Shown in pieces: positions 39,084-39,902 of a DNA stretch of 39,902 nt (positions within the stretch are counted from its first letter, which is position 1; each line of letters opens with the position of its first letter). The DNA lies in the NCBI GenBank assembly GCA_024400505.1, contig JAKSMP010000018.1, forward strand, positions 1-39,902, written 5' to 3'. A model generated the notes under the pieces. That model was not told where the DNA came from and did no database searches. It saw only the letters and a list, made by a program, of their open reading frames with translations. Source of the DNA: Bacteroidales bacterium (GTDB taxonomy: Bacteria > Bacteroidota > Bacteroidia > Bacteroidales > P3). The position numbers were made by a program, and so were the translations under genes.

Positions 39084-39276
39084 TCATAAAATTTGTTTTT
39101 TCTAGCCGAGCAAGCTCGGCCAGAACGTCTGAAAGACGAGGATCCTCAGTGAGAATCTGAGAGCGCCATTGCAATTCGAAAATCATTAATAAACAGCAAT
39201 TTTCGATTAATTTCTAGTAATTCCTTTCCGCTCGTAAGTTTTGCCAACGAAACTTAGACCATCCAATTTTTAGAGG
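39084..39276. repeat. Dispersed hairpin-rich repeat, copy 2
   Basis: The left end (TAAAATTTGTTTTT) and right end (ATCCAATTTTTAGAGG) match copy 1 at 1045-1140. Shared internal hairpins are CCGAG/CTCGG (39106-39119), CGTCT/AGACG (39126-39138) and TAAGTT/AACTTA (39235-39256). An extra 90-100 bp insert carries a CTCAG/CTGAG hairpin (39145-39161) and an inverted CGAAAAT/ATTTTCG pair. Its right end directly abuts the promoter at 39293. Confidence 0.6.
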
Positions 39277-39292
39277 TTAACAAAAAAATTCG

Positions 39293-39301
39293 TATCTTTG
39301 C
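39293..39301 (+). promoter_or_regulatory. -7 promoter element of the structured RNA region
   Basis: TATCTTTGC is a perfect -7 element; transcription would start near 39305. The next possible start codon with a sensible frame is at 39800, nearly 500 nt downstream. Confidence 0.65.
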
Positions 39302-39304
39302 AGT

Positions 39305-39755
39305 CGCAAAACGATTTTACTCATAGTTAAATTGTGCAACTTTGCACTTGGATACAGCCTAGCCGAAACGCAGTATCCAAACAGGCAAGGTTCATAAAAC
39401 TTTAAGGTGGATTGATGGGCTCTATGCCACCTTAAAGGCAAAATGAGTTTATAGAGCCCTCTGAAACAAGTTGTTCAAAACAAAACAGAAAGAACATTAA
39501 TATAACATATTAAATGTAACGCGCATTGACTATTATTTGCGTTCGTCTGAATAGCCTCGGAAACTATTATCGGAATAAGAACACAAAGAATAGTGGTTAG
39601 GCTAGCTTCCTTGGTAGAAGTGAGTCTTATCCTCCTTTGTAAGAGTTCAATGTTTGTGCCTTTGGGCATGAGCATATCTTATAGGAGGATGAGGTTCCAT
39701 TCCGAGGCAGCCTCGACGAACGCATAAGAAGGTTCATGCCTTTTTTATGCGCTCT
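39305..39755 (+). ncRNA. Candidate structured RNA or very long structured leader
   Basis: The 5' part has a stem TTGGATAC/GTATCCAA (39348-39380). It is followed by a textbook H-type pseudoknot: stem 1 CTTTAAGGTGG (39400-39410) with CCACCTTAAAG (39427-39437), and stem 2 GGGCTCTAT in its loop (39417-39425) with ATAGAGCCC (39451-39459). The 3' part is a closed multi-branch fold: GCCTCGGAA (39554-39562) with TTCCGAGGC (39700-39708), enclosing ACTATT/AATAGT (39563-39594), a small CTTC/GAAG hairpin (39605-39621) and a 15-bp stem (39622-39636 with 39683-39697) that needs G-U pairs on the plus strand. A last hairpin lies at 39721-39751. No ORF fits. It does not match tmRNA, RNase P or SRP RNA as I know them. 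Confidence 0.6.
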
Positions 39756-39799
39756 CGCAAGTGGTAGATCGATGCACATAGCATCAATTTATCACGAAA

Positions 39800-39902
39800 A
39801 TGGGAAAGAAGGAACATACAGCAATACCGGCAGAATATTTTATTGCTGCCAAAGCGATTGCTTTGATGGGTATTTCTCGTCACTCTTTTGAAAAACTTGT
39901 CA
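39800..39902 (+). CDS. 5' end of a possible helix-turn-helix protein, running off the window
   Basis: From the ATG at 39800, 34 codons are open to the edge (starting MGKKEHTAIPAEYFIAAKAI). The stretch IAAKAIALMGISRHSFEKLV resembles the first helices of MerR/excisionase-type DNA-binding domains (KEAAELLGISRRTFY in typical members). It lies about 45 nt beyond the last hairpin of the structured region, so it may be controlled by that RNA. Family assignment is tentative because most of the protein is missing. Confidence 0.45.
   Translation, partial: MGKKEHTAIPAEYFIAAKAIALMGISRHSFEKLV

Follow-up and report, generated by a model that had tools for sequence, protein, structure and literature searches.

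A structured RNA family of Bacteroidales, a candidate two-state leader of restriction-modification and surface genes

The locus at the end of the contig

The window analyzed here is an entire contig of 39,902 bases, belonging to a Bacteroidales genome of 2.09 Mb (81 contigs, 73% complete). The features of interest lie toward its 3' end, all of them on the plus strand:

39293-39300, plus: -7 promoter element TATCTTTG, read from the sequence; the motif is common upstream of other copies
39400-39459, plus: H-type pseudoknot (11 bp + 9 bp) outside the family unit, supported by shuffles and seen in no relative
39523-39537, plus: anchor, a conserved 5' single strand GCATTGACTATTATT, from the alignment; possible partner of the S loop
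39538-39547, plus: 5' strand of helix P1 (covariation)
39554-39562, plus: 5' strand of helix P2 (mutual information, covariation)
39626-39693, plus: hypervariable long stem, with arms 39626-39644 and 39677-39693
39654-39660, plus: strand A, pairing with 39665-39671 to form hairpin P4 (90.5% of cells paired)
39665-39673, plus: strand B, whose partner is A (P4) or C (39732-39740) (covariation)
39691-39694, plus: 5' strand of helix P5, pairing with 39711-39714 and flanking the P2 3' strand (88.5% of cells paired)
39700-39708, plus: 3' strand of P2 (mutual information, covariation)
39715-39724, plus: 3' strand of P1 (mutual information, covariation)
39727-39744, plus: hairpin T (39727-39732 with 39739-39744), T-rich on its 3' side (87 to 88% of cells paired)
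39732-39740, plus: strand C, long-range partner of B (94.5% of cells paired; both-side changes in 8 of 9 pairs)
39761-39795, plus: hairpin S (39761-39775 with 39781-39795), stopping 4 nt short of the start codon; by eye, relatives have similar hairpins
39800-39902, plus: start of the downstream ORF (34 amino acids), cut by the contig end and read from the sequence

A first-pass annotation of this DNA had described a perfect promoter followed by a region without ORFs (39305-39755). The -7 element TATCTTTG is indeed in place, and we take it to be of the Bacteroidetes type, judging from the consensus of that type; a scan of the window for sigma-70-type promoters, which does not cover the Bacteroidetes type, retrieved none. 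The region also lacks plus-strand ORFs of 60 amino acids or more, as do the approximately 500 nt between the -7 element and the ORF at 39800, and one 66-amino-acid ORF of the minus strand overlaps it. The surroundings of the promoter (39200-39312) recur in parts at six other places of the same genome with 75 to 91% identity (contigs C47, C67, C51, C32, and C34 and positions 1089-1141 of the window), perhaps as a repeated promoter region. For the truncated 34-amino-acid ORF, which the first-pass annotation had called HTH-like, there was no Pfam match even at an E value of 10 and no match in plasmids and phages, and in 190 genomes of the family and 393 of the order it retrieved only itself.

Folding of 39305-39795 gave z scores of -8.1 on the plus strand and -4.8 on the minus strand, and none of 100 shuffles was as stable on either strand. 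The RNA is real but had been misframed, since its unit in the window is 39523-39799, ending at the start codon at 39800. The 9-bp complementarity that had been described as the outer closure of the fold (39554-39562 with 39700-39708, our P2) exists, although it is not the outermost helix and is enclosed by P1 (39538-39547 with 39715-39724), which was absent from the earlier description together with the B:C pairing (39665-39673 with 39732-39740) and hairpin S. A long stem is likewise present where a 15-bp helix with three G-U pairs had been proposed, but that helix could not be reproduced exactly: the stem is made of 11 bp (39626-39636 with 39683-39693) plus 6 bp (39639-39644 with 39677-39682) with two G-U pairs, and it is topped by an 11-bp hairpin (39650-39660 with 39665-39675) that contains three.

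The H-type pseudoknot, also part of the earlier description, consists of two perfect helices of 11 bp (39400-39410 with 39427-39437) and 9 bp (39417-39425 with 39451-39459), and it is above chance expectation, as an equally good one was found in none of 3,000 mononucleotide shuffles of the segment. However, it lies outside the family unit, between the promoter and the leader, is present as a single copy in its own genome, and has no counterpart among the relatives' loci examined.

A covarying RNA family of Bacteroidales

When the window element was compared by blastn with 61 genomes, counting its own, a single match to the structured part fell in non-coding DNA (L009). It belongs to another family of the order, and the alignment corresponds to a homologous RNA with compensated helices. 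When this second RNA was used as the query, matches appeared in 10 of 20 genomes of its family, two of which (G580 and G584) were weak and probably due to chance; 2 of the 23 blast sites were left out because they had no anchor match. A sequence-pattern scan of the genome collection reached at least 119 stretches. Among the 121 matches listed, six were rejected by eye (L080, L167, L173, L181, L189, and L190), and 115 stretches were retained, labeled as Bacteroidales, as Bacteroidia, as families or genera within them, or with one of seven Candidatus names, plus one "uncultured bacterium." The 137 copies were reduced to 131 by removing six that were too short or cut, then to 121 unique sequences and to 92 at 85% identity. 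A covariance model (R1) was built from 44 of these 92, taking every other copy once six poor ones had been set aside.

Searching with R1, we found the RNA in 65 of the 189 genomes from the window's family, and in 41 of 109 when only the better genomes are counted, with up to ten copies per genome; the RNA family is present in many gut and rumen Bacteroidales. One copy was found in the window's own genome. In a phylum-wide sample, R1 matched 2 of 296 genomes, the window's own and a borderline one with an E value of 1e-4. An Rfam 15 search of the window retrieved two tRNAs only and no match at the RNA, relaxing the thresholds to an E value of 5 added one match far below the gathering score, and 16 relatives gave five matches, none at the element; the comparison proposed by the first-pass annotation therefore links neither the window nor these relatives to a known family. 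Neither the window element (blastn) nor a relative's RNA matched anything in the phage and plasmid collections. Two viral matches of the sequence pattern were judged to be chance, and the matches of 39648-39674 inside thrS of two genomes were taken as chance too.

Covariation was evaluated in a MAFFT alignment of the 92 copies, less than 85% identical to each other. In the copies chosen by the pattern, the anchor, the outermost three bases of P1, and the motif AAACT, which reaches the innermost pair of P2, are fixed, so nothing can be concluded from their invariance; the pattern places no such constraint on B:C, P4, P5, and T. P1, P2 (39554-39561 with 39701-39708), and B:C together were paired in 91.2% of cells, with both-side changes in 22 of 27 pairs and 329 both-side-changed cells versus 89.6 in shuffles. 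None of 500 shuffles equaled the paired share, the number of changed pairs, the cells, or the covariation score, and slid partners were paired in 30 to 44%; only the further pair types were unexceptional (102 of 500 shuffles). The covariation to be expected of a conserved RNA is thus present among diverged homologues. For P4 (A:B, 39654-39660 with 39665-39671), P5, and T together, 89.2% of cells were paired, a share reached by none of 500 shuffles, and 115 cells had changes on both sides versus 45.9 in shuffles (0 of 500), their count of both-side-changed pairs being unexceptional (118 of 500 shuffles). Mutual information computed without a preset structure (121 sequences) placed pairs of P1, P2, P4, and B:C near the top of a list that also holds many column pairs forming no helix. 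Since B:C crosses both P1 and P2, it constitutes a pseudoknot. The long stem is kept in spite of its hypervariable sequence, with a longest complementary run of at least 8 in 81 of the 92 copies and a mean run of 9.7 versus 5.9 when partners were swapped. A helix competing with P1 (PX), with at least 5 of 7 pairs in 65 of the 92 copies, is absent in the window and was left out.

The ratio of G-U to A-C was 155:9 in B:C, 142:3 in P4, and 39:9 in P5, and weaker elsewhere (17:9 in P1, 21:16 in P2, and 47:22 in T). The bias in A:B and B:C fits a plus-strand RNA product, the strand that had been proposed from the window copy alone. The promoter motif is also shared. TAnnTTTG is found at most 260 nt upstream in 97 of 123 copies, compared to 22.2 ± 4.0 in shuffles, and in 96 of 121 once repeats were removed; together with an upstream TTG at 17 to 22 nt it occurs in 42 of the 123 (3.2 in shuffles) and in 41 of the 121. 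Its position is most often 40 to 120 nt upstream of the anchor.

Alternative pairings and the start codon

Strand B can pair with A or with C but never with both, and T is excluded when B:C forms. Both P4 and B:C are kept in 76 of the 92 copies, where kept means 5 or more of the 7 A:B pairs and 7 or more of the 9 B:C pairs. Median energies were -9.1 kcal/mol for the A:B hairpin, -5.6 for T, and -15.9 for B:C, and the sum of A:B and T minus B:C had a median of +0.5 kcal/mol (10 to 90% range of -3.2 to 6.4 in 91 of the 92 copies, with pseudoknot loop costs uncounted). For A:B and B:C alike, a copy's own strands outpaired swapped ones, with none of 300 permutations as good. The A:C pairing, which is not expected, also beats its swapped control (-2.6 versus -2.2 kcal/mol, 0 of 300), and relatedness therefore contributes to the advantage of own over swapped strands. 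Mutually exclusive pairings, both of them conserved, are a trait of riboswitches, and here they show two compatible structures, both of which may be used in the cell. As for an attenuator, T is conserved, but it is weak and was not flagged by the terminator scan of the window, so transcription attenuation has no direct support.

The 3' side of the element is tied to the start codon, which lies 244 to 300 nt after the anchor, or 34 to 62 nt after the end of the model, in 104 of 129 distinct copies (107 of 132 with repeats kept). Where the first ATG fell inside hairpin S, the start was reassigned to one further on in the same frame. By eye, a hairpin S stands just before the start codon in most of the relatives' tails inspected. 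The fit between the anchor and the S loop of the same copy was 4.64 versus 4.46 ± 0.06, with 3 of 2,000 permutations as high; some copies look compensated and many have only three pairs. With this modest support, we consider it likely that the 5' anchor and the S loop form a kissing contact.

Two possibilities had been raised for the region, a large noncoding RNA and a structured leader. A stand-alone or trans-acting RNA located upstream of genes by happenstance would account for the stable and complex fold and for the 13 of 164 copies, among the matches listed, that have no called downstream ORF, some of them being cut by the end of the contig or stretch. Nevertheless, it fits poorly with the narrow distance to the start codon and with a hairpin adjoining it, and no intrinsic terminator was found at the end of the RNA in the window, so that we regard this explanation as very improbable. 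The strand bias of the downstream genes is no independent evidence here, as ORFs were called only on the strand of the RNA. The structured leader agrees better with the data, given the covarying homologues, the lack of an Rfam match, and a start codon at a narrow distance downstream. Conserved covarying structure placed between a promoter and a start codon is what would be expected in general of a cis-regulatory leader, and the region is best read as a putative 5' untranslated leader that precedes the gene at 39800 and belongs to a leader RNA family of the Bacteroidales.

The contigs of the window, L077, and L180, which share the window's RNA subtype, break off inside hairpin S or a short way past it (L077 at the last base of the hairpin, L180 at contig base 1); different genes following one leader in the population may be the reason. 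At the loci of G184 and G186 (L248-L252 and L258-L260), the leaders score lower and are followed by genes for lipoprotein-like and BspA-like surface proteins. Where an ORF could be called there, its start codon lies farther off, 66 to 131 nt beyond the end of the model. A tmRNA gene is also present in L250.

Genes downstream of the leader and their exchange

The cargo was tallied as the first downstream ORF of 164 distinct copies, called on the RNA strand only. Most of it was reached by one sequence pattern, so the shares that follow, which refer to the matches listed, are not unbiased. Names come from a Pfam scan of 30 representatives and a PADLOC scan of 9, the remainder having been named by blastp clusters, sequence motifs, or likeness by eye. 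Among these matches, restriction-modification (R-M) genes follow 109 of the 164 copies. In 83 of them the first ORF is an EcoRI-type adenine methyltransferase, and in 26 it is another R-M gene (7 large IIG-like, 4 MmeI-type, 4 N4/N6 or type III, 3 C5, 2 type I N6, 2 ResIII helicases, 1 D12, 1 Tsp45I endonuclease, 1 ISP, and 1 doubtful methyltransferase). The IIG-like label rests on clustering and on an NPPY motif in the members inspected, and three members scanned had no Pfam or NCBIfam match. Surface or surface-modification genes follow 24 of the 164 copies (6 acyltransferases, 2 MBOAT, 5 glycosyltransferases, 4 sulfatase-like, 2 deacetylases, 2 GDSL-like below the Pfam cutoff, 1 hexapeptide, and 2 BspA-like), HTH genes follow 2, and 16, the window included, have other, very short, or unclassified cargo, again among the matches listed. 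In the window's own RNA subtype (19 copies), the cargo includes 4 EcoRI-type, 1 C5, and 3 N4/N6 or type III methyltransferases as well as 2 MBOAT and 3 acyltransferases. The suggestion that the RNA belongs to a mobile-element regulator is not borne out, as in relatives it mostly precedes DNA methyltransferase or restriction genes and surface-modification genes. The cargo of L054 and L063 (and of L056 by clustering), proteins of 811 to 911 amino acids with no Pfam or NCBIfam match and an NPPY-type motif in the two inspected, is possibly an unmodeled type IIG group.

The abundance of methyltransferases, together with the two-state architecture, could point to a metabolite riboswitch, for instance one sensing S-adenosylmethionine. 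This is the least credible of the explanations considered, because the same leader stands before acyltransferases, glycosyltransferases, and sulfatase-like genes and no Rfam family matches it. Metabolite riboswitches with two-state platforms do share with this RNA the position in a 5' leader, one strand with two partners, and a hairpin near the start codon; they differ in that ours has no Rfam match or known ligand and precedes diverse defense and surface genes.

We consider instead that the element is probably, if well short of certainly, a cis-acting two-state 5' leader controlling R-M and surface genes. Structure, strand, alternative pairings, placement, and cargo are facts at the level of sequence, from which we infer a switch of expression. 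In one state B would pair with A, leaving T free to form next to hairpin S at the start codon; in the other, B would pair with C, breaking T and locking the leader into the pseudoknot, with S possibly held as well by way of the 5' anchor. Such a switch would be read out near the start codon, with either state potentially being the ON state, and its output would be the level of the R-M or surface-modification enzyme, set via translation initiation or attenuation. Since the same leader precedes unrelated proteins, we propose that the balance would be governed by a shared trans factor or small molecule rather than by the encoded protein.

Antitermination leaders are known before surface-polysaccharide genes, and a leader of this kind, comparable to EAR/LoaP, PUT, or JUMPstart/RfaH leaders, bound by a protein or by the polymerase and aiding read-through of the downstream genes with no two-state switching, would agree with the surface-polysaccharide-type genes among the cargo and with a promoter motif placed mostly 40 to 120 nt upstream of the anchor. 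We find it an unlikely explanation, given that many cargos look by eye like single genes or pairs, that the element extends to the start codon, which antitermination does not need, and that the conservation of both A:B and B:C would be left unexplained. The RNA resembles epsC (EAR) and JUMPstart in being a structured leader able to precede surface-polysaccharide genes but differs in standing mostly before R-M genes, in reaching the start codon, in its occurrence in Bacteroidales, and in having no Rfam match. Leader-dependent control of surface loci is known within the Bacteroidales from the UpxY-type control of Bacteroides capsule loci; in contrast, no NusG-like protein was present among the 30 cargo representatives scanned here. 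R-M genes elsewhere are controlled by C proteins or small antisense RNAs, which are alike in providing special control for R-M genes, whereas here one cis RNA design would serve across R-M types.

In the main texts of two motif surveys, the epsC (EAR) and JUMPstart leader elements correspond to RF01735 and RF01707 (Weinberg 2010, PMC2864571), and uncharacterized structured RNAs of Bacteroidetes, as the present one is, are described (PMC2864571; Fremin and Bhatt 2021, PMC8040213). The words "methyltransferase" and "restriction" have no occurrence in these main texts. We recognized no description of this RNA in the literature searched, in which the motif surveys are represented by their main texts only, and this is not proof of novelty. 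Structured cis-regulatory leaders are a known kind of element; as far as we can tell from Rfam and the literature searched, what is new is this RNA family, a design built on three strands, and the variety of R-M and surface genes that follow it.

Among 23 distinct pairs of copies sharing their upstream flank, 14 have related cargo and 7 unrelated cargo. In four of these seven exchanges, representing three loci, the two copies stop resembling each other close to the start codon, from 4 nt ahead of its first base to 6 nt beyond it (L075 and L100 versus L117, L096 versus L098, and L123 versus L176). L123 and L176 represent the locus of G587e and G590a, whose downstream sequences become alike again close to the stop codons. 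Homology stops 23 to 24 nt before the start codon in L156/L188 and inside the leader in L098 versus L126 and L178. In L086 and L144, inspection by eye shows the final codons of an HNH gene left behind a glycosyltransferase, which seems to have replaced an R-M operon; in L119 the leader is joined to that HNH remnant, the cargo being gone.

Unrelated cargo behind a shared flank and leader, breaks at the start codon, and such HNH remnants might suggest that the DNA of the element is a site of recombination or cassette exchange, the fold serving recombination and not expression. We hold this to be improbable: the excess of G-U over A-C in B:C and P4 denotes selection on one RNA strand, three of the seven exchanges break before the start codon or inside the leader, and the 3' breakpoints are not fixed; exchange behind a common leader can also be plain homologous recombination. 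An integron-like attC site, which works as folded DNA with a definite boundary on either side, is not matched: the 5' break falls at the start codon in four of seven exchanges, the 3' ends are unfixed, and the G-U bias of B:C and P4 denotes RNA. The simplest reading would be homologous exchange within the shared leader with a variable 3' break.

A broader idea, which we put forward tentatively and think rather doubtful, is that one RNA switch serves the whole lineage as a shared regulatory plug, behind which genes of several R-M types and genes altering the phage-exposed surface are exchanged at the start codon, with one cellular signal setting both methylation and surface state. How R-M systems are acquired without self-harm and kept in balance is a long-standing question, usually answered by system-specific regulators. 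If the idea were correct, a new defense gene arriving behind the leader would gain ready-made control, and a single RNA design may regulate various forms of phage defense. A leader common to different R-M types and surface genes would give these abundant inhabitants of gut and rumen a shared layer of control and tie epigenetic variation to variation of the surface. The covariance model in any case lets R-M and surface loci be found by RNA rather than by protein.

Some loci carry further genes next to the leader. In L053, L064, L057, and L059, accessory genes that by eye are presumably DUF1016-, zeta-toxin-, and RhuM-like have their ends immediately upstream of it or no more than about 50 nt away. 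In L048 (G054:C33), a degenerate second leader (element G054b) is found just upstream of the intact one, and so is a fragment resembling a C terminus that we take to be of the DUF1016 type, as if an earlier cargo had decayed upstream of the intact leader.
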